Assembly: GCF_031157525.1 (NCBI RefSeq)
Contig: NZ_JAVIXR010000005.1
Span: 62,001 to 126,000, forward strand
DNA length: 64,000 nucleotides
From: Marinobacter sediminicola
GTDB taxonomy: Bacteria > Pseudomonadota > Gammaproteobacteria > Pseudomonadales > Oleiphilaceae
Direction of reading: 5' to 3'
The notes beneath the pieces are model-generated. The model made no database searches. It saw nothing but the letters and a program-made list of their open reading frames with translations, and was not told the origin of the DNA. Positions 18,019-63,943 of this stretch are shown here, piece after piece. Within the stretch, counting starts at the first letter, position 1, and every line of letters begins with the position of its first letter. The translations under genes and the position numbers were made by a program.

Positions 18019-19122
18019 CTAGGCCGGGTTCGCTTTTCCAGCCCACTTGAGCAAGGCGCCGGAGTTTCCACGAGCCAGGATTTTCCCCTGTTTCTGCCGG
18101 AGCTGGTAATCGTACATAGGATCATAGTAATCCTGCAGCAGCGGCTGAATCCAGGCATCATGGCCTCCCAGGTCACCATTGCTTTCCTGCTGGGTTAGCG
18201 CGCGCTCCATAAGGTTTTTTAGCTGGCGGTGACGTTCGCCTCCCAACCGTTTACTGATACGTTCAAGAGCGCCCAGAAGGTAGTCACGAAAATTCAGCCA
18301 GCCGGCTTCCTCGCCATCACGGCTCATGTAGTCAGCAGCCATATTTTCTACATAGTCTTCCCGAATAATGCGAGTGCGGTCTTCCAGCGATTCCTCGAGA
18401 ACCAGAAGGGGTGTGCGGGCCATGCGCTCTTTCAGCGCATCGGGCAGTGCGCAGCGACCAACCAGGCGACTTTCGTCTTCGAGATAGATCGGGCCACCCT
18501 TCAAGTGGCGCGCTCTCAGCATGGCAACGGCCAGGCGATTTTCAAAGTCTATTTGGGATGGCTGCGGCGTTACTTGTCGCCCGAAGCTGGAGCCCCTGTG
18601 GTTTGCCAGGCCTTCCAGATCTACCGGGTTGGGAAGTTGATGCAGCACGCGGGTTTTGCCGGTCCCTGTGCGCCCACTGATGATGCGGAAATCCGCGGAA
18701 TTGATGAGTTCGTCGAGGCTGTCGATGAGGAACCGACGTAGGGCTTTATAGCCGCCTTTCACGAGGGGGTAATCAATGCCGGCATCCCTGATCCACTGCT
18801 GGGTTAGCCTTGATCTCAAGCCGCCACGGAAGCAGAACAGATAACCTTCCGGATGGTTCGCTATAAATCGCTTCCAGGTTTCGATGCGCTGAGCTTGAAC
18901 ATCCCCCGAAACCAGTTGGTGGCCGAGCCGAATGGCTTCATCCTGTCCTTTTTCCTTGTAGCAGATGCCTACCCGGTGCCGCTCTTCATCATTCATCAGC
19001 GGTGCGTTTACAGCGCCAGGGAAGCTGCCCCTGGCAAACTCTACCGGTGCCCGGACATCCATCAGAGGCGTGTTGTTCAGGAACAGTGAGAGGTAGTTTT
19101 CGGTATCGGGTCTGCTTGGCAT
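18019..19122 (-). CDS. selU: tRNA 2-selenouridine synthase (SelU/MnmH)
   Basis: Replaces sulfur by selenium (via a geranylated intermediate) at wobble 2-thiouridine of tRNA. 367 residues: an N-terminal rhodanese domain with LMDVRAPVEF and the catalytic cysteine in YLFCFRGGLRS, then a P-loop domain with GRTGTGKT. The ATG at 19122 aligns with known N-termini; a TTG four codons upstream is possible. The enzyme needs selenophosphate from SelD, which is not in this window. A terminator follows at 17928-17948. Immediately upstream on the same strand ends the CsrB-like RNA. Confidence 0.93.
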   Translation of the reverse strand: MPSRPDTENYLSLFLNNTPLMDVRAPVEFARGSFPGAVNAPLMNDEERHRVGICYKEKGQDEAIRLGHQLVSGDVQAQRIETWKRFIANHPEGYLFCFRGGLRSRLTQQWIRDAGIDYPLVKGGYKALRRFLIDSLDELINSADFRIISGRTGTGKTRVLHQLPNPVDLEGLANHRGSSFGRQVTPQPSQIDFENRLAVAMLRARHLKGGPIYLEDESRLVGRCALPDALKERMARTPLLVLEESLEDRTRIIREDYVENMAADYMSRDGEEAGWLNFRDYLLGALERISKRLGGERHRQLKNLMERALTQQESNGDLGGHDAWIQPLLQDYYDPMYDYQLRQKQGKILARGNSGALLKWAGKANPA

Positions 19123-19184
19123 TTCAGGGCTCAATCGCTTGCCAGAATGAGGCGGCAGTATAGCGGATGTGTAGAAAATCCGTG

Positions 19185-19215
19185 AAAAAAAAGGGCAGCC
19201 CTGAGGCTGCCCTTT
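19185..19215 (-). terminator. Intrinsic terminator of the CsrB-like RNA
   Basis: Stem AAAGGGCAGCC / GGCTGCCCTTT with loop tcag on the minus strand, then an uninterrupted run of T (A at 19185-19192 on the plus strand). The nearest upstream protein stop on this strand is 380 nt away, which argues that a separate transcript ends here. Confidence 0.85.
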
Positions 19216-19413
19216 ACCGGAACAGGTCGGCGCATCCTTGCGCTGAGTGCAACAACCGTGTTGCGAATCCTTTTGCCACTCCGTGGTGCCGGCGTCCGAG
19301 CCAGCGATCCGAATAGTTATCCCTTAAGCCAGGTATCCCTGTATCCCTGCTTCTCCCTGCATTCCTTGCCGGGGTGCATCCAGTGCGTCGTCCTTATCCT
19401 TGTCATCCTTGAC
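19185..19413 (-). ncRNA. Candidate CsrB/RsmZ-like small RNA sequestering CsrA/RsmA
   Basis: A gene-free stretch on the minus strand, about 229 nt, containing 14 GGA triplets; roughly 4 would be expected by chance at this base composition. Many have the AAGGA, CAAGGA or AGGGAUA context preferred by CsrA/RsmA, as in CsrB, RsmY and RsmZ. The RNA would end at a strong intrinsic terminator: GGGCAGCC-tcag-GGCTGCCC followed by eight T (19185-19215). A TATAGT -10 element lies at 19420-19425, placing the start near 19413. No conserved protein is encoded here. I infer family membership from motif density, terminator and promoter, not from a covariance search. Confidence 0.72.
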
Positions 19414-19419
19414 GAAGCC

Positions 19420-19469
19420 ACTATACCAATGGATGAGTGTGGAAATGTGTGAGCTGTGCACGCTTGTGT
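19420..19469 (-). promoter_or_regulatory. Promoter and possible activator site of the CsrB-like RNA
   Basis: TATAGT (minus strand, 19420-19425) is a good -10; the -35 position is poor, as expected for an activator-dependent promoter. Just upstream, 19448-19469 reads (plus strand) TGTGAGC-tgtgcac-GCTTGTG, an imperfect dyad that recalls the GacA/UvrY upstream site TGTAAG-N6-CTTACA but with wider spacing. The activator assignment is tentative. Confidence 0.45.
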
Positions 19470-19570
19470 CTGGAGTTTTCCCAAAGAGATTACTGAAGCG
19501 TAATCATATCAGTGTGTTAACTAATTCCCGGTGATGGCTGTAGTGGGTGCGCACGAGCAATTGCTGCAAG

Positions 19571-19590
19571 ATCGCACACGTTTGTGCGAT
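19571..19590. repeat. Perfect 8-bp hairpin at the 3' end of the VanZ-like gene
   Basis: ATCGCACA-cgtt-TGTGCGAT begins 6 nt past the stop codon of the VanZ-like gene and about 160 nt upstream of the CsrB-like RNA start. No T run follows on either strand, so a terminator is uncertain. Confidence 0.5.
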
Positions 19591-19595
19591 ATATC

Positions 19596-20000
19596 TCACA
19601 CTGACTTGGGCGAATTTCTCAAATCTCTTTTGTTGCTTGAGGGGAGTCCGGGCCAGGGTAGGAGGCCAATCAGTATTCCTGCGCCGTCAGCGGCCACGTC
19701 TGCCAGCGAGAAGTCCCGGTAGGGAAGAAGGGCTTGAACAGCTTCTATGCCCAGCCCAAAAGCCAGCAACGCCGGTGCGAACCAGATGGCGCGGAGCTCC
19801 GGCCAGGCTAACCGCGTAACCAGCGTGAGTTCAACAAATGCGATCAAGTGGTTCACTTTGTCGCTGGGGGCTGAGGGGATCGGGTAACTGTTGCTTGTGG
19901 TTGCCAGAAAGCCAATAGCAATGACCGACAGCAGCAAGGCAAAGCGCCACAGCGGCCGGAAGTTCAGCAGGCTTGTCAGTTGATGTTTCAGTGTTCCCAT
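19596..20000 (-). CDS. VanZ-like family membrane protein
   Basis: A 134-residue inner-membrane protein with about four hydrophobic segments. The pattern DKVNHLIAFVELTLV after the first helix, and YRDFSLADVAADGAGILIG near the end, match the VanZ-like family (the D-x-x-x-H and D-x-x-A-N/D positions). The biochemical role of this family in non-resistant bacteria is not established. It is divergent from cysZ with 97 nt between starts. Confidence 0.85.
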   Translation of the reverse strand: MGTLKHQLTSLLNFRPLWRFALLLSVIAIGFLATTSNSYPIPSAPSDKVNHLIAFVELTLVTRLAWPELRAIWFAPALLAFGLGIEAVQALLPYRDFSLADVAADGAGILIGLLPWPGLPSSNKRDLRNSPKSV

Positions 20001-26764: not shown

Positions 26765-26875
26765 ATGAATAAGACGTACTCCGCAGTTAGTAGTGACCGT
26801 CCTGTTTTTGATTCCGCGAGTTCTGTATTTCCGTACAACGCTGACCAGCCACATTCAGTGAATGGCAGCAGTTAA
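26765..26875 (+). CDS. Possible 36-residue small protein in the cold-shock leader
   Basis: ATG at 26765 opens a 36-residue frame (MNKTYSAVSSDRPVFDS...) ending TAA at 26873-26875, inside the predicted cold-shock leader and 26 nt before the csp ATG. It is serine-rich, has no signal peptide and matches nothing I recognise. The nearest purine-rich stretch, GGAAGGAAAG, is about 16 nt upstream, too far to be ideal. It may be a real leader peptide or chance. Confidence 0.3.
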   Translation: MNKTYSAVSSDRPVFDSASSVFPYNADQPHSVNGSS

Positions 26876-26901
26876 TATGATTGATTTCAGGAAGTTTAAG
26901 T

Positions 26902-27108
26902 ATGTCTACTACTACCGGTACTGTTAAGTTCTTCAACGAAGCTAAAGGCTTTGGCTTTATCACTCGTGAAGGCGGCCCGGACGTTTTTGTTCACTACAGC
27001 GCAATTCAGGGCGGCGGTTTCAAGACTCTGGCTGAAGGCCAGCAAGTTGAGTTCACCGTTACCCAGGGCCAGAAAGGTCCTCAGGCGGAAAACGTTACTC
27101 CTCTCTAA
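26902..27108 (+). CDS. CspA-family cold-shock protein
   Basis: Single-stranded nucleic-acid chaperone of 68 residues forming one OB fold. RNP1 is KGFGFIT and RNP2 is VFVHYSAI, both intact. The ATG at 26902 follows AGGAAG; a TTG 21 nt upstream is unlikely. The gene has its own promoter with a long leader and a strong terminator directly after it, so it is monocistronic. Confidence 0.95.
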
Positions 27109-27135
27109 TCCCACTCGGATAGAGTAGTAACCGCC

Positions 27136-27163
27136 AAAAAGGCAGCTTCGGCTGCCTTTTTTT
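27136..27163 (+). terminator. Terminator of the cold-shock gene
   Basis: AAAAAGGCAGC-ttcg-GCTGCCTTTTTTT: 11-bp stem with a UUCG tetraloop and a T run. Confidence 0.92.
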
Positions 27164-27314
27164 CGTTATAAGGGCTCGGTTCTTTTCCTGCACTGAAGCA
27201 CTAATGTGGTACATTTTCAGCCAAGCACAGTAAGTTGTTTAAAGAGAATTACTGGCGATCGTTACCCATGAGTGTCAACAAAGAGTATCACTGGGTTACA
27301 CAACCGGAGAGCTT

Positions 27315-47582: not shown

Positions 47583-50144
47583 TTATCCGGGGGTGTGCTG
47601 TCTGGTGACGGCTTCACGCCTTTGGGATAGCCAGCCCAGCATGCGTTCAAGTGGCAGCGGCCGGCTCAGGAAGTAGCCCTGAATCATGTCACAGCCCATC
47701 CCTTTCAGCAGATCTGCAGTGGCTTCTTCTTCCACGCCCTCGGCCACAACCAGGTAGCCGAGGCTGTGACACATATTGATGGTCGTTTGAACAATCACTC
47801 TGTCTTCTTCGCGGGTAGCCAGATCCGTTATAAGCGATCGGTCGATTTTGATTTCGCTGGCGGGCAGCTGCTTGATGTAGGAAAGCGAGGAGTAGCCAGA
47901 ACCAAAGTCATCAATGGAAACCGGAATTCCGGCGCTGGCCAGTGAGTTAAGGGCTTTAAGAGCGTTAGCGGGGTCCTGCATCATCGATGTTTCTGTAACC
48001 TCAAAGATGATCGAGCCCCTGTGTTCCAAGTGTGCGCCCATCAAGCGTTTTACAAACATCGGGAAATCCGGCTCCCGGAGATTATTCGGTGAGATATTGA
48101 CCGAGAGGTCCAGAAGGTGGCCGTTTTCGAGCAGGCGGCTCCGGAGTTCAAGTGATTGCTCCAGCACCCAGCGGGTGAGTGGTTTTATCAGCCCTGTCTG
48201 CTCAGCCAGCGTGATGATTTCATCCGCAGGCACGGGCTGTTCTCTTGCTGGCCAGCGAATGAGGGCCTCCATTCCACAGATCCGGCCGGTTCTTAAATTC
48301 AGCTTTGGCTGCAAATGGAGCGCCAGTTCATTATTCACAAGTGCTTTCTGTAATTCTGAAACCATCGTAAGCCGGCTGGCACTGTATGAGTCCAGGGATG
48401 GCCTGTAGTACGCAATTCCGCGCTCACGGGCGCGGTCTGAGCCCTCCGCTATAGAAGCTCTGCGAATCAAAGTGGATGCGTCAGTGCCATCAACCGGGGA
48501 AACCGCGATACCAATCTGGGCGTTCAGTGGAATCTTCATGCCAAGAAAATCGACCGGGGCACGGATAGCTTCCAGTGCACGGACAACCGCTCTGCGTGCC
48601 TGCTCGGTCGTGTCGGCATCCACTATGCAGACCAATGTCTCCAGGTCGAGAGAGGCTGTGTAAAAGCTGCGTCCGTTATGCTGACCAAGAGAAATAACGC
48701 CTGGAATCTGACGGGCGATAGCATTCGCGTTTTTCGCGGTTACCTCTGATATGAGGTCGCTGTTTCGGTGCCCAAGAGTCTTGGTCACAGACTGCAAGTT
48801 ATTCAGGTGGATGATGACAATGCCGTGCCGGGTATTTGGACCCCGGCGAATCAGGTCATTCACTTGCATCTCAAAATTGGTTCGGTTGGGAAGGCCTGTA
48901 AGCGAGTTGTGTAGCGCGTTTTCTATTAGTTTCAGCTCGGCTGAACGCCGGGCTGCCATGGCTTTCAGCTCCGCATCGCGGGCTTCTACCTTCCCTTGGC
49001 GTTCTTGGTAAAGCCTCGCGGCCAGCGCCAGTGCCAGCAAAACTGCCTGAAGTGCCGACCCGATCTCCATGCCGTAGGCTGTAATAAAGTTGTTGGGCAT
49101 AAACCCGGCTTTGTTGGCACCGGTGATGGCGCTGCCAACGGATAAAGCGCACCAGGCTATTGTGTAATAGCCAGCTTGTGGGTTGCCGCGTATCCATTGT
49201 AATGGCCCCATGATGGTAAGAAGCAGCGTGCTTGGGATCGCGACAGCCACCGATAACCGTATGGAAGTGCCGAAATCAAGCAGGCCGGAGGCTGCGATCA
49301 GGAGTGCGTTTGCCGCAACAAAGCCAATGACGACCCGGTTCAGAGCCGGCCCGGAATGTTCAAGCTGGAGAAATGAACGCGAAAATAACAGGGTAAACAT
49401 GACGGCAAAGGGGATGGAGAGCAACGTGACCCAGCTATGAAGCTCGGGGCTCCTTGGCCACAGTAGTTGGAAGGCCGTGCCATTCAAGCTGCTGATTAAC
49501 AGGAGGTAGCTTAGCGTCGAGAGCACATAGAAAAGATAGACATTCTCGCGCAGAGCAAAAAATACAAACAGGTTGAAAAAGATAACGCTGATCAGTACGC
49601 CGTAATAGATGGCATGGAGCTGCTCCTCAACGGATGCGTGCTCGAAAAACGATTGAGCATTCCATAGAGCCAAGGGTACTTGCAAAGTACCTGTTGTTCT
49701 CACTTCGAGCAAAACTTGCCGATCAGTGCTTGTGTCCGCGCTGAATGGGAACAGGAAGTGTCGGTTGAGAATGGGGCGCTCTTTGAAGGGGTGATGGTCG
49801 CCAGTAACGGTCGCTTCGATAACCTGGCCGTTTTCCATCAGATAGAAGGCAACGTGATCCAAATGGGCGTACCCGATCTCAAGCAAATTAATCTGGCGGT
49901 TAACAGGAACGTCAAAACGGAACCAAATGGTATCCCGAGTGTAGCCAAAATTTGCGCTGCTGTTTGCGAGAGGTTGCCAGTCAGCAGAGGCTGATGCTTT
50001 GGCGGGCGACAGTTCAGCGTCGGGTGACAGGCGGAGAAACTCGACACTGGGAAAACGGAACGCCTCAGCGCCCTGGCAGCTAAACGCCAGGGGTAAAAAC
50101 AGCACAATTGCTGCCAGAGTGCGAAACCATTGGAATCTTGTCAC
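47583..50144 (-). CDS. 7TMR-DISM membrane protein with degenerate GGDEF and intact EAL domain
   Basis: 853 residues. A signal peptide, an extracellular DISM-type beta domain (to about residue 180), seven hydrophobic helices (about 180-385), a coiled linker, then GGDEF (about 410-565) and EAL (about 590-840). The GGDEF signature is lost: the region reads GQHNGRSF. The EAL motif is present as EALIRWPA, with DDFGSGYSSLSYIKQLP and EGVE, so the protein is expected to degrade c-di-GMP, possibly with GTP or another ligand sensed by the GGDEF remnant. The DISM domain probably senses a carbohydrate-like ligand. Confidence 0.9.
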   Translation of the reverse strand: MTRFQWFRTLAAIVLFLPLAFSCQGAEAFRFPSVEFLRLSPDAELSPAKASASADWQPLANSSANFGYTRDTIWFRFDVPVNRQINLLEIGYAHLDHVAFYLMENGQVIEATVTGDHHPFKERPILNRHFLFPFSADTSTDRQVLLEVRTTGTLQVPLALWNAQSFFEHASVEEQLHAIYYGVLISVIFFNLFVFFALRENVYLFYVLSTLSYLLLISSLNGTAFQLLWPRSPELHSWVTLLSIPFAVMFTLLFSRSFLQLEHSGPALNRVVIGFVAANALLIAASGLLDFGTSIRLSVAVAIPSTLLLTIMGPLQWIRGNPQAGYYTIAWCALSVGSAITGANKAGFMPNNFITAYGMEIGSALQAVLLALALAARLYQERQGKVEARDAELKAMAARRSAELKLIENALHNSLTGLPNRTNFEMQVNDLIRRGPNTRHGIVIIHLNNLQSVTKTLGHRNSDLISEVTAKNANAIARQIPGVISLGQHNGRSFYTASLDLETLVCIVDADTTEQARRAVVRALEAIRAPVDFLGMKIPLNAQIGIAVSPVDGTDASTLIRRASIAEGSDRARERGIAYYRPSLDSYSASRLTMVSELQKALVNNELALHLQPKLNLRTGRICGMEALIRWPAREQPVPADEIITLAEQTGLIKPLTRWVLEQSLELRSRLLENGHLLDLSVNISPNNLREPDFPMFVKRLMGAHLEHRGSIIFEVTETSMMQDPANALKALNSLASAGIPVSIDDFGSGYSSLSYIKQLPASEIKIDRSLITDLATREEDRVIVQTTINMCHSLGYLVVAEGVEEEATADLLKGMGCDMIQGYFLSRPLPLERMLGWLSQRREAVTRQHTPG

Positions 50145-50213
50145 GATTCACCGAAAGTTATAGTTGTTTTCAAAATCAGCATGGACTGTAGCTAATAGCG
50201 GCCCAAAGTACGC

Positions 50214-50742: not shown

Positions 50743-51846
50743 TCAAGCGCTTGGTGCATTCTGGGCATTTGCAGCCTGACTGCGTACCCGAGGTGCAATC
50801 CGGTTGCGTCCGGATTCCTTGGCGCTGTATAGATGCAAGTCCGCCTGGCGAAGCATGTTGTCAATGGAGTCGGCCTGAGAAATAGAGCAGACGCCCGCAC
50901 TCATGGTTATGGGTAAATCCTCACCGTGGAAACTAAAACGTTCCCGCGCTACCTCGCTGCGTAAGCGTTCGGCCAACGTGAGAGCTGGAAGCAGGGATGT
51001 GTCCGGTAGCAGCAGGAGAAACTCCTCGCCGCCCCAGCGGGCCGCCACGTCGGTTTGACGGATGACGGATTGCACGGTCAAGGCAAATTGCTTTAAAGCC
51101 GCGTCGCCAGCGCTATGACCATAGTGGTCGTTGATATTCTTGAAAAGATCGAGGTCGATCAGAACAATGGAAAAGTGGTGTCCGGAACGCTGGTACCGTG
51201 AAAACTCTTCCGATAACCGATTCAGGATGTCCCGCCTGTTAGACAGCCCGGTAAGCTCGTCGGTTTTGGCCGCATGTTCGTGAGTCAGGGCGAGATCCAG
51301 CAATTCGTTCCGAGCCTTCAGTCTGCTGGCTTCGAGGACAAAACAGAAGATCGATTCAAAGGTCAACGTTGCGAAAAAGCGGATCTTGAAGTCGCCGCTG
51401 TACTCCGCCTGCACAAAGGGCAGGCCGGGAAACTGGAACACAATAAGGGCAACCAGATAGACCAGCAGAAGAATCATGGTGCCGGTTTTCAGATTGGTCA
51501 GGAAAAACAGCAGAGGCGGAAACACGTAGAACCACAGAGGGCCGGTATTGCTCTCACCCCCGGAGGCTATGAGGTAAGTAAAAAGAAAGCTTACAATAAC
51601 CAGAAGCCCGGTTTTTTGTATCTCGCGATTCCGGGAGAAGGCAAACCAGACCATGTTTGCGACCACGGGCAGGATAAATCCCCACAGGGCAAGAGCGTGG
51701 CTGTAGTGTGCTGAACTCCAGGCTTTTGCGCCAATGCCGAGCAGGGTCAAAATCGCCGCGAGTGACAGCCAGGTCAGCACCAGCGAAATCTGCGCGCTTT
51801 CGCGTTCCTGTGCAGCTTGATAGCCCAAGGATGAGTGTTTTGTCAT
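50743..51846 (-). CDS. Membrane diguanylate cyclase (GGDEF)
   Basis: 367 residues. Five or six hydrophobic helices (about residues 20-165) form an N-terminal membrane sensor without a recognisable domain. A short helical linker leads to a GGDEF domain with active site GGEEF. The product-inhibition site RxxD is present as RQTD, five residues ahead of it. It should therefore make c-di-GMP and be feedback-inhibited. The ATG at 51846 removes a 28-residue upstream extension that has no family features. Confidence 0.9.
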   Translation of the reverse strand: MTKHSSLGYQAAQERESAQISLVLTWLSLAAILTLLGIGAKAWSSAHYSHALALWGFILPVVANMVWFAFSRNREIQKTGLLVIVSFLFTYLIASGGESNTGPLWFYVFPPLLFFLTNLKTGTMILLLVYLVALIVFQFPGLPFVQAEYSGDFKIRFFATLTFESIFCFVLEASRLKARNELLDLALTHEHAAKTDELTGLSNRRDILNRLSEEFSRYQRSGHHFSIVLIDLDLFKNINDHYGHSAGDAALKQFALTVQSVIRQTDVAARWGGEEFLLLLPDTSLLPALTLAERLRSEVARERFSFHGEDLPITMSAGVCSISQADSIDNMLRQADLHLYSAKESGRNRIAPRVRSQAANAQNAPSA

Positions 51847-52060
51847 AGCGGCCTTGTTGTTATGTACAACGCTGTTGTTTATTACTCTGGCTCTCTGCCC
51901 ATTATGAATCAGGCAACGGTAGGTATGCATCTATTTCAAGTGTATTGTGTGACCGGTTCGCGCAGACGCACATTAGTTTCAATTTCAGGGTAAAAAATTT
52001 ATAGTTGCGCGCTACACGGTGGATCCTTCCCCATTCAGACCAAATGAGACTTATTCTGTT

Positions 52061-53719: not shown

Positions 53720-53989
53720 ATGAGTACACCGATTGAAAGCCGTCGCCAGGCCAAGGTGATTGATGAGCTTCGAGTGTTTATCAAGAAGGTGTTAAGTGAT
53801 CCGACTATCGCGGTAAAGTCTATCGACATTGCCCGAAAGTATCGGTCTCAGCCCGGCTCCGACGAAGTAATCGCCCGGGAAATCAGCGCTAACACAACCA
53901 TCCGTATCCCGGAAAAGTGGAGTGATGCGGATCGAATGTTTCTGGAAATTATTGATGAAGTATTGGATGACGAAGAGGCACTTTACTGA
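53720..53989 (+). CDS. Conserved-looking hypothetical protein
   Basis: 89 residues, charged and probably soluble, with predicted helices at both ends (SRRQAKVIDELRVFIKKVL and DRMFLEIIDEVLDDEEAL) and no cysteines or membrane segment. The ATG is well placed after GGAGG at 53708-53712. I do not recognise the family. It lies between the PiT gene and repeat copy B. Confidence 0.65.
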   Translation: MSTPIESRRQAKVIDELRVFIKKVLSDPTIAVKSIDIARKYRSQPGSDEVIAREISANTTIRIPEKWSDADRMFLEIIDEVLDDEEALY

Positions 53990-54035
53990 GTTAGTTGCCC
54001 CCGGAAATCCGGTATTAGAGGCTAGCACGGAGCGA

Positions 54036-54136
54036 GGGAGGGAATCAGGCTTCCAAAACCGTGCGGAGCCATGGATGGCGGAGCCGAGCGTACAGGGAGG
54101 TATTTACAGCGTGTTTTGGAAGCCTGATTCCCTCCC
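54036..54136 (-). repeat. Dispersed hairpin element, copy B (24-bp perfect arms, conserved loop)
   Basis: Arms 54036-54059 (begins GGGAGGGAATCAGGCTTCCA) and 54113-54136 are exact reverse complements; adding flanking pairs (one G-T) extends them to 28 bp. The 53-nt loop, read on the minus strand, begins ACGCTGTAAATACC and ends GGCTCCGCCATCC then ATGGCTCCGCAC. It lies between convergent stop codons of the 89-residue gene and panP, and is in the opposite orientation to copies A and C. Confidence 0.85.
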
Positions 54137-54166
54137 TTGCGGTTCCTGAAGGGTAATTCCACTACG

Positions 54167-61735: not shown

Positions 61736-61801
61736 AGCTGTTAACGGACTACCCCGGGCCGGGAAGCGGCAGGCGGATAATCAGATAGGAATTGAGAGGC
61801 C

Positions 61802-63943
61802 ATGAGAGCGGAAATCGTCAGAAATCTCACAACGGGTGGTGGGCAAAGTGTACCTGCTCCCATAGATCTTCCATCCGAAGGAGAATTGGTCGATCTGGAT
61901 GCCAGTGAAAACTACTTTAACCGTGAACTGAGCCAGCTTCAGTTCAATTACCGTGTGTTGAAACAGGCGCTGGACACCACTCATCCGCTGATCAATCGGT
62001 TGATTTTTTGCTGCATTTTCAGCAGCAACATGGATGAATTCTTTGAAATTCGTGTGGCTGGCCTGCGCCAGCAGATCAAGTACGGCAGGGAAACTCTGGG
62101 TGCTGACGGCATCATGCCGGAACAGGCGCTGGGTGAGATCAGCCGTATTGCCCACGAGTACATTGATGAGCAGTATGACATTCTGAATCATGTGCTTATT
62201 CCGGAGATGGAAAAGCAAAACATCCATTTTGTGCGCCGCAGAGAATGGACGCCGGAGCAGGCCGAGTGGGTGCGCAATTATTTCGATGAAGAAATTCTCC
62301 CGGTAGTCAGCCCCATTGGATTGGATCCTTCGCATCCGTTCCCTCGGTTGGTTAATAAAAGCCTGAACTTTATTGTTGAACTGGATGGCAAAGATGCCTT
62401 TGGGCGCGAGACGGGCATGGCCATAGTGCCTGCGCCGCGCTCTTTGCCACGGCTCGTGCGCTTACCGGACGAAGTCTGCACCGGTGGAGAGAATCTGGTT
62501 TTCCTGTCATCTGTAATCCACGCTCACGCCGATGAGTTGTTCCCGGGGATGGAGGTCAAAGGGTGTTATCAGTTTCGGCTTACTCGCAACGCCGATCTGG
62601 AACTGGAAGACGACCTGGAAGATTTGGCATCTGCGCTACGTGGCGAGCTTCTCAGTCGCCGCTTTGGTGATGGGGTTCGGTTGGAGGTTGCGGACAACTG
62701 TCCTCAGGAACTCGTGCAGTTTTTGCTGACGGAATTCGGCCTTGGGCAGAGAGATTTGTACCAGGTCAACGGGCCGGTGAACCTCACACGGTTGATGGCG
62801 GTTACCGGATTGGTGGATCGTCCTGATTTGCACTATTCCAGCTTCTCGCCTGCCATCCCCCGGCAAATCCGCAGCAAAGAAACCATCTTTGATGCCATCC
62901 GTAAGCGGCCAATATTGCTGCATCATCCATTTCAGAATTTCAGCCCTGTAGTGGATTTGCTGCGCCAGGCCGCGAAAGATCCGCAGGTTTTGGCTATCCG
63001 CCAGACGCTATACCGCACGGGTGCCAATTCAGAGGTTGTAGAAGCGCTGGCAGATGCGGCCCGGCGCGGTAAAGAAGTCACTGTAGTTGTTGAATTGCGG
63101 GCTCGATTCAGCGAGGCGGAGAACCTGGAGCTGGCCAGCCGGCTGCAGGAAGCCGGTGTGATCGTGGTCTATGGCGTTGTGGGCTATAAAACCCATGCCA
63201 AGATGATCCTCATTGTACGTCGTGAGGAAGGGAGGCTGCTCCGTTATGTTCATTTGGGAACCGGAAACTACCATGCGGTGAATGCGCGGCTCTATACCGA
63301 CTACAGCTTCATGACCTGTGACGAGTCCATTGGGGACGACGTCAATAAAATCTTTCAGCAGCTAACCGGTATGGGGAAGGCCCTGAAAATCAAAAAATTG
63401 TTCCATGCCCCGTTTACCCTCCATAAACGCTTGATCAGTCTGATTGAACGTGAAACGGCCTTGGGAGAGAGAGGGCAGATCATCATAAAGATCAACGCCT
63501 TAACAGAAGTGCAGCTTATCAAGGCGCTGTATCGAGCCTCCCAGGCGGGAGTGCAGGTTGATCTGATTGTGCGTGGTATCTGCAGCATCAGGCCCGGGGT
63601 TCCGGGGCTGTCAGATAACATTCGTGTGCGCTCCATTGTGGGGCGTTTTCTTGAGCACACGCGAGCCTACTATTTTGGTAATGACGGTAAGCCCGACGTG
63701 TTCTGCTCAAGTGCAGACTGTATGGAGCGCAACCTGCTAAGCCGGATTGAAATTGCGTTTCCAATTGAAGACCCGGAGCTGATAGCGCGAGTGCGCGAAG
63801 ACCTGGACACGTACCTGGCGGATAACTGCCAGTCATGGATGTTGCAGCCCGATGGCAGTTACGTTCAGAATCAGTTGGCCGAAGGTGAGGAACGAGTGGC
63901 CTCGCAACTGGTTCTTCTGGATCGCCTGACAGGCAAATCCTGA
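61802..63943 (+). CDS. ppk: Polyphosphate kinase Ppk1
   Basis: Reversible synthesis of inorganic polyphosphate from ATP. 713 residues, within the usual 690-740. The autophosphorylated histidine is in VGYKTHAKMILIVRREEG (first catalytic block); HLGTGNYHAVNARLYTDYSF follows, and the second block contains the active-site segment near SSADCMERNLLSRIEIAFP. The N-terminal helical domain has NRELSQLQFNYRVLKQA. No exopolyphosphatase gene is visible downstream within the window. Together with Pst, PhoBR, Pit and a PhoD-like enzyme it is part of a set of phosphate genes. Confidence 0.95.
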   Translation: MRAEIVRNLTTGGGQSVPAPIDLPSEGELVDLDASENYFNRELSQLQFNYRVLKQALDTTHPLINRLIFCCIFSSNMDEFFEIRVAGLRQQIKYGRETLGADGIMPEQALGEISRIAHEYIDEQYDILNHVLIPEMEKQNIHFVRRREWTPEQAEWVRNYFDEEILPVVSPIGLDPSHPFPRLVNKSLNFIVELDGKDAFGRETGMAIVPAPRSLPRLVRLPDEVCTGGENLVFLSSVIHAHADELFPGMEVKGCYQFRLTRNADLELEDDLEDLASALRGELLSRRFGDGVRLEVADNCPQELVQFLLTEFGLGQRDLYQVNGPVNLTRLMAVTGLVDRPDLHYSSFSPAIPRQIRSKETIFDAIRKRPILLHHPFQNFSPVVDLLRQAAKDPQVLAIRQTLYRTGANSEVVEALADAARRGKEVTVVVELRARFSEAENLELASRLQEAGVIVVYGVVGYKTHAKMILIVRREEGRLLRYVHLGTGNYHAVNARLYTDYSFMTCDESIGDDVNKIFQQLTGMGKALKIKKLFHAPFTLHKRLISLIERETALGERGQIIIKINALTEVQLIKALYRASQAGVQVDLIVRGICSIRPGVPGLSDNIRVRSIVGRFLEHTRAYYFGNDGKPDVFCSSADCMERNLLSRIEIAFPIEDPELIARVREDLDTYLADNCQSWMLQPDGSYVQNQLAEGEERVASQLVLLDRLTGKS

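Follow-up and report, generated by a model that had tools for sequence, protein, structure and literature searches.

The RsmZ and RsmY RNAs of Pseudomonas (RF00166 and RF00195), which are 110-130 nt long, combine multiple GGA motifs with a GacA box. In the rsmX, rsmY and rsmZ genes this box serves as a control element, according to excerpts of two studies (PMC2375449, PMC4950607); the excerpted text of the second gives TGTAAG-N6-CTTACA as the GacA site at rsmY and rsmZ and places the P. aeruginosa sites at -196 for rsmZ and -75 for rsmY (PMC4950607). For the E. coli RNAs, the excerpted text of PMC11882849 quotes 14 GGA in CsrC and 22 in CsrB. Marine bacteria contribute Pf1-Pf3 of Pseudoalteromonas and CsrR1 and CsrR2 of Alcanivorax, which were found by their GGA content and are presented as CsrA antagonists or putative antagonists in the portions consulted (PMC9788540, PMC11882849). 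In the accessible portions of the open-licence PMC literature, PMC5864184 included, we found no Csr/Rsm RNA or CsrA-antagonist RNA in Marinobacter; the main text of PMC5568370 does not mention the genus, and excerpts of PMC10516948 report upregulation of csrA in Marinobacter sp. C18.

We analysed a 64,000-nt stretch of Marinobacter sediminicola DNA (the window) in which one intergenic region resembles these systems. Based on motif count, terminator, conservation, covariation, an upstream GacA box and the presence of CsrA and GacA, all of which are read from sequence, we consider it very probable that this region encodes a GacA-activated, CsrA-sequestering small RNA, a putative new member of the CsrB/RsmZ functional class that we call RNA1. 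It sits between a VanZ-like gene and selU/mnmH, all on one strand, and the locus is laid out as follows.

19596..20000, minus strand: VanZ-like gene (PF04892), the upstream neighbour, whose 3' end overlaps the GacA box
19583..19600, minus strand: GacA/UvrY box TGTGAGATATATCGCACA, at -187 to -170 from the RNA1 start, with one mismatch to TGTRAG-N6-CTYACA
19443..19463, minus strand: partly conserved TCACA-containing block GCGTGCACAGCTCACACATTT just upstream of the -10, from the alignment of 88 upstream regions
19420..19425, minus strand: TATAGT -10 element without a consensus -35, from the conserved upstream regions
19185..19413, minus strand: RNA1, putative CsrA-sequestering sRNA of about 229 nt with 14 GGA, its 5' end placed by the -10 and conservation, matched over its full length by a covariance model
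19190..19215, minus strand: intrinsic terminator stem-loop of 11 pairs followed by more T, from the scan, with 7 of 9 pairs changed on both sides
19157..19186, minus strand: promoter-like site 3' of the RNA1 terminator, possibly for selU, from the consensus scan
18019..19134, minus strand: selU/mnmH, tRNA 2-selenouridine synthase, the downstream neighbour

An earlier note on this DNA had proposed a CsrB/RsmZ-like RNA here with 14 GGA motifs on the minus strand, a textbook terminator and a TATAGT -10. Our recount also gives 14 GGA in the 229 nt. Against a minus-strand mean of 3.0 (sd 1.9), all other regions on that strand of the window stay below 12, and one plus-strand region equals the RNA1 count. 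The excess that the note described is real, with only 0.04% of 20,000 mononucleotide shuffles yielding 14 or more GGA, but its expectation of about four was too low for this composition, because the shuffles contained 6.0 +/- 2.0. The terminator was found as an 11-pair stem and a run of eight T, three of which lie inside the stem. TATAGT is present at 19425-19420 and places the start of RNA1 six nt downstream, at 19413, though it lacks a good -35 and the promoter is missing from the consensus promoter scan of the window; the evidence for this promoter is the -10 and its conservation. The fold energy z-score of RNA1 was -2.6, to which the terminator contributes part.

To look for regulation we scanned with TGTRAG-N6-CTYACA, which we take to be the GacA/UvrY box pattern, using up to 400 nt upstream of each of 88 distinct RNA1 homologues (shorter in L088 and L101). 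The best match had no mismatch in 21 regions, one in 54 and two in 10, so that 75 of 88 carried a box with at most one mismatch and 85 of 88 one with at most two, counts that are not independent since the homologues share ancestry. The remaining three had weaker boxes, with three mismatches in two regions and four in the truncated region of L088. Boxes with up to two mismatches lay mostly at -185 to -190, the exceptions being at -197, -199 and -209. After shuffling, upstream regions contained a box with at most one mismatch in 0.2% of cases and with at most two in 4%, and a reversed control pattern was never found with one mismatch or fewer and was found with two in 2 of the 88. Of 19 loci read outside the genus, 18 had a box at -185 to -209 with at most two mismatches. 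The exception, L218, has a longer RNA of which the model matches the end, and its box (two mismatches) lies at -188 from the start of that RNA. Across the whole genome the consensus at two mismatches was uninformative (218 matches against 246 for the reversed control), so it is position and conservation that make the box near RNA1 meaningful. By sequence match, RNA1 has the GacA/UvrY-type upstream activating sequence of the CsrB/RsmZ class, and its occurrence in 85 of 88 upstream regions is the decisive new evidence for our reading of the locus. The TCACA-containing block, also seen upstream of the RNA1 -10 in several of the loci L207-L226, is possibly a second activator site.

These upstream elements bear on whether RNA1 could instead be the 3' UTR of the VanZ-like gene, with the small RNA a mere processing product. 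The VanZ-like gene runs in the same direction, its end lying about 180 nt before RNA1, and our scan detected no minus-strand terminator between the two. However, the -10 and the GacA box are conserved at near-fixed spacing, and an expanded homologue in another genus (L222) keeps both the box and the RNA though its upstream ORF is not VanZ-like. That ORF presumably encodes a pseudouridine synthase. We regard the 3' UTR explanation as highly unlikely.

We also asked how widely RNA1 is distributed. BLAST matches (E<=0.001) were present in 93 of 100 genomes of the genus, the source genome included. We fetched 80 loci via selU, hence independently of RNA1, and 30 more via RNA1 itself; a match was found in 78 of the 80 and in 108 of all 110, giving the 88 distinct sequences. 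The two selU loci without a match were a short contig (L072) and that of M. xestospongiae (L106), which had no box with two mismatches or fewer in the 3 kb upstream. Named records among the RNA1 loci are Marinobacter plus one Halomonas MAG, and at least L110 belongs to another GTDB genus. The selU of the window is 98% identical to that of its nearest named relative, a Marinobacter. All 88 homologues contain 13-17 GGA, exactly 14 in 51 of them. Twelve of the 14 motifs in the window are kept in 88-100% of homologues and the other two in 66-68%, and mean column conservation was 0.96 at GGA compared with 0.82 elsewhere. RNA1 therefore has the many conserved GGA of the CsrB/RsmZ class, with three genomes of one Marinobacter subclade holding only 4.

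The same loci allowed us to consider RNA1 as a 5' leader or attenuator of selU, whose terminator would govern read-through. RNA1 does lie upstream of selU in the same direction, with the terminator between them. However, only 20 of the 80 selU loci have at least 13 GGA per 230 nt within 450 nt of selU, while 58 of the remaining 60 still have an RNA1 match in the locus. Between RNA1 and selU, two of those 60 loci that we read (L044 and L087) have an oppositely oriented gene, and in two loci of other genera (L218 and L222) no selU was found in the stretch. There, methyltransferase-like and MscS-like ORFs follow RNA1, named by their likeness to ORFs of L044 and of the window. The promoter-like site possibly serving selU also comes after the RNA1 terminator. 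Taken together, these arrangements leave a leader function with very little credence.

For a wider search for the RNA1 family we built a covariance model from 43 sequences (alignment A1), selected from 60 non-redundant ones; the 17 left out include many with a longer 3' part. At E<=0.01 the model matched 144 of 151 genomes of the family, the weakest matches being short or fragmentary. This comprised 111 of 112 genomes in the genus, the exception being G081, and 33 of 39 in other genera of the family. Together with the BLAST result, this bears out the conservation that the earlier note had named as a check. Twelve of 16 genera had a match above 40 bits; the best match in genus g8 scored 39.7 bits, and the loci read there still have the box and a GGA array. 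The 20 loci chosen for reading were picked among the covariance matches listed. At the level of the order, the model had matches at E<=0.001 in 53 of 293 genomes, of which 13 belong to the family. None of the 40 matched genomes outside it exceeded 32.4 bits, and 17 loci from these matches had, in their central part, no box with at most one mismatch and no 230-nt stretch with at least 11 GGA. The sole full-length match among these 17 (L245) was read by eye and rejected, as it ends in a terminator inside ordinary sequence. We do not claim RNA1 homologues outside the family.

Several GGA motifs of RNA1 are predicted to lie in hairpins, four of which are given here.

19402..19413, minus strand: 5' mini-hairpin GUCA-AGGA-UGAC with GGA in the loop, predicted fold and covariation
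19288..19305, minus strand: hairpin GCUGGC-UCGGAC-GCCGGC presenting GGA, predicted fold and covariation
19276..19286, minus strand: hairpin CCAC-GGA-GUGG presenting GGA, predicted fold
19230..19243, minus strand: hairpin GCGCA-AGGA-UGCGC presenting GGA, predicted fold and covariation

RNAalifold on the 43 sequences returned 39 pairs, and in 12 of these both sides had changed at least once. We also wrote a structure by hand, consisting of five GGA/GG hairpins and the terminator, and scored it on 27 sequences (alignment A2: 18 of the 43 in A1 plus 9 of the 19 loci read in other genera, with much longer, shorter or duplicate ones left out). In this structure 89.3% of cells were paired and 19 of 37 pairs had changed on both sides, a number equalled by none of 500 shuffles, although writing the structure from the same 27 sequences favours it. 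Sliding it by 1-3 columns left 6-10 such pairs. Accessibility was less clear-cut. The fraction of GGA in local hairpins was slightly enriched (0.48 compared with 0.40 in shuffles), and mean unpaired probability over the 43 sequences was 0.61 for GGA, 0.41 for all bases and 0.50 for G and A, suggesting that GGA accessibility is moderately raised and not extreme. The loop placement that the earlier note had asked about is thus seen in part: several covarying hairpins display GGA, but 6 of the 14 GGA in the RNA1 of the window are predicted to be more paired than unpaired, with a mean unpaired probability under 0.5, and for two of these it is under 0.2.

With GGA accessibility moderately raised, and CsrA binding a prediction, RNA1 might be GGA-rich yet work chiefly through base pairing or through a protein other than CsrA. 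Against this, CsrA is encoded in the genome, no part of RNA1 is better conserved than its GGA trinucleotides, and a GacA box controls the rsmX/Y/Z genes in the excerpts cited above (PMC2375449, PMC4950607). We consider such a role very improbable.

The region had been described as gene-free, and its coding potential agrees with this. Minus-strand ORFs overlapping RNA1 span 45-55 aa and plus-strand ones 49-64 aa, the three frames are interrupted by a stop in 79, 84 and 84 of the 88 homologues, and the longest closed ORF has a median of 29 aa. Having its own -10 and terminator and being non-coding, RNA1 takes the form expected of the CsrB/RsmZ functional class. That it is a chance or coding artefact, a repetitive or protein-coding sequence, is largely refuted already and of negligible probability: a plus-strand stretch of the window likewise has 14 GGA, a few homologues have a stop-free frame, and the longest closed ORF among all 88 is 79 aa, but frames are broken by stops in most homologues, and the pattern of conservation and covariation is that of an RNA. 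The CsrB/RsmZ-like reading is instead supported by conserved GGA, compensatory stem changes and the upstream GacA box.

The Rfam models for CsrB, RsmY and RsmZ, which the earlier note had suggested as a check, did not recognize RNA1 at threshold. No Csr/Rsm family was found in the whole window at gathering score or in 19100-19550 at E up to 10, where the seven weak matches all overlap the terminator. On the whole genome, the best matches to RF00166 (PrrB_RsmZ; 21 bits, gathering 44) and RF00195 (RsmY; 24.4 bits, gathering 57) were at other loci, and RF00018 (CsrB) had no match at E<=10; among controls for this last model 8 of 14 genomes matched, E. coli included, one of them over the cut-off. 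The best RsmY and RsmZ places (L145 and L146) were rejected as candidates, having no box with at most one mismatch and at most 9 GGA per 230 nt. Because the models score below threshold, we assign RNA1 to the class by mechanism and not to an existing sequence family. With 14 GGA, it is about twice the length of RsmZ and RsmY and has no threshold match to either model. Their gene neighbours also differ from those of RNA1. CsrB and CsrC are long and GGA-rich like RNA1, without a sequence match. Pf1-Pf3 and CsrR1/CsrR2 are likewise GGA-rich RNAs of marine bacteria, though from other lineages, and are likened to RNA1 by their description in the excerpted texts. The RNA1 family could be covered by a new Rfam entry.

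The partners of such an RNA are encoded in the genome. There is one CsrA, of 65 aa, which scores 119.7 bits with NF002469 (cut-off 73), and one regulator of the UvrY/SirA/GacA family above the NCBIfam cut-off (298 against 280 bits), with 47 weaker matches all below it. The ORF directly after the GacA ortholog gene is presumably UvrC. Both CsrA and a GacA ortholog thus accompany RNA1, as expected for an RNA of the CsrB/RsmZ class.

From these features we infer transcription, GacA binding, CsrA binding and target derepression in the following way. Phosphorylated GacA would bind the palindrome about 180 nt upstream of RNA1 and switch on its weak promoter, which has the TATAGT -10 and no consensus -35. 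The 229-nt transcript would stop at its own terminator, and its 14 GGA, several of them in hairpin loops, may bind several CsrA dimers. Titration of CsrA would then release the target mRNAs of CsrA. A second RNA in the same genome, RNA2, may share in the titration and would likewise be activated by GacA.

RNA2 emerged from the genome-wide search for boxes. A box with at most one mismatch occurred at 15 places, one of which is RNA1, and we inspected the other 14. At one of these (L134, on contig C22) the box is followed by 17 GGA within 230 nt.

L134:901-1158: RNA2, flanked by a DUF3185 gene and a helix-hairpin-helix gene; GacA box at -74

The predicted transcript starts with GUCAGGGAUGAC, resembling the 5' end of RNA1, and folds into several predicted GGA hairpins (z -2.95, calculated from the second base and with a 3' end chosen by us). 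The consensus scan found no terminator for RNA2, and no Rfam family reached threshold. BLAST matches to RNA2 were present in 81 of 100 genus genomes, its own included. The 5' motif, for which we demanded a minimum of 8 GGA within 240 nt, was found in 29 of 30 loci fetched by RNA2, and in all 29 the best box match was at -74 with 1-3 mismatches. The box positions of RNA1 (-187) and RNA2 (-74) mirror those quoted for rsmZ (-196) and rsmY (-75) of P. aeruginosa in the excerpts of PMC4950607. We do not claim orthology with rsmZ and rsmY because neither RNA reaches the Rfam threshold.

At the same locus RNA1 itself varies in size: the shortest form is about 105 nt long and has 4 GGA, while the longest forms are about 620 nt and have 35-38 GGA. 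The short form occurs in one Marinobacter subclade (L223, L227 and L228), where RNA1 has 4 GGA and its inferred start follows a perfect box at a distance of roughly 174-187 nt. In L227 it runs about 105 nt to the terminator; in L223 and L228, where our script located no terminator, the length was set by eye. Two of the three short-RNA1 genomes were scanned for boxes (G026 and G063), and both keep an RNA2-like locus, in each case a perfect box followed by 10 GGA within 130 nt, an assignment made by box and GGA density; BLAST with RNA2 found no match in either genome. At the other extreme, RNA1 is about 440-510 nt with 24-31 GGA in genus g8 (L224-L226), about 620 nt with 35 GGA in genus g7 (L218:739-1360) and about 620 nt with 38 GGA in genus g11 (L222:742-1360). 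In the last, for which the script reported no terminator, we set the end at a T-run, and this RNA contains a 17-nt tandem unit, GGTCAGGAAGACTACAA, in 3.7 copies. We lean towards the view that one syntenic GacA-controlled CsrA sponge has acted as an evolutionary capacity dial, set at 4, 14, 24-31 or 35-38 GGA with the box 174-209 nt upstream. The largest form would exceed the 25 GGA quoted for Pf1 of Pseudoalteromonas in the excerpted literature.

Marinobacter species are widespread marine bacteria that degrade hydrocarbons and form biofilms, and RNA1 and RNA2 are together the likely RNA arm of their Gac/Csr switch. A natural series of 4 to 38 GGA under one control element makes it testable how sponge capacity tunes a global regulator. 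The GacA box, RNA2 and the size variation of RNA1 were all absent from the earlier note.

Elsewhere in the window, we located the two c-di-GMP genes and the polyphosphate kinase gene to which that note had pointed, namely a GGDEF gene at 50746-51930, an EAL and GGDEF gene at 47586-50147 and polyphosphate kinase at 61796-63940. A second stretch with 14 GGA per 229 nt lies at 53847-54157 on the plus strand. Within it is an inverted repeat, GGGAATCAGGCTTCCAAAAC ... GTTTTGGAAGCCTGATTCCC. None of the 280 loci compared contains a 22-base piece taken from this stretch, which resembles a repeat element more than a Csr RNA. The sole Rfam match of the window at gathering score was a cspA thermoregulator at 26867-27164 on the plus strand (88.5 bits).
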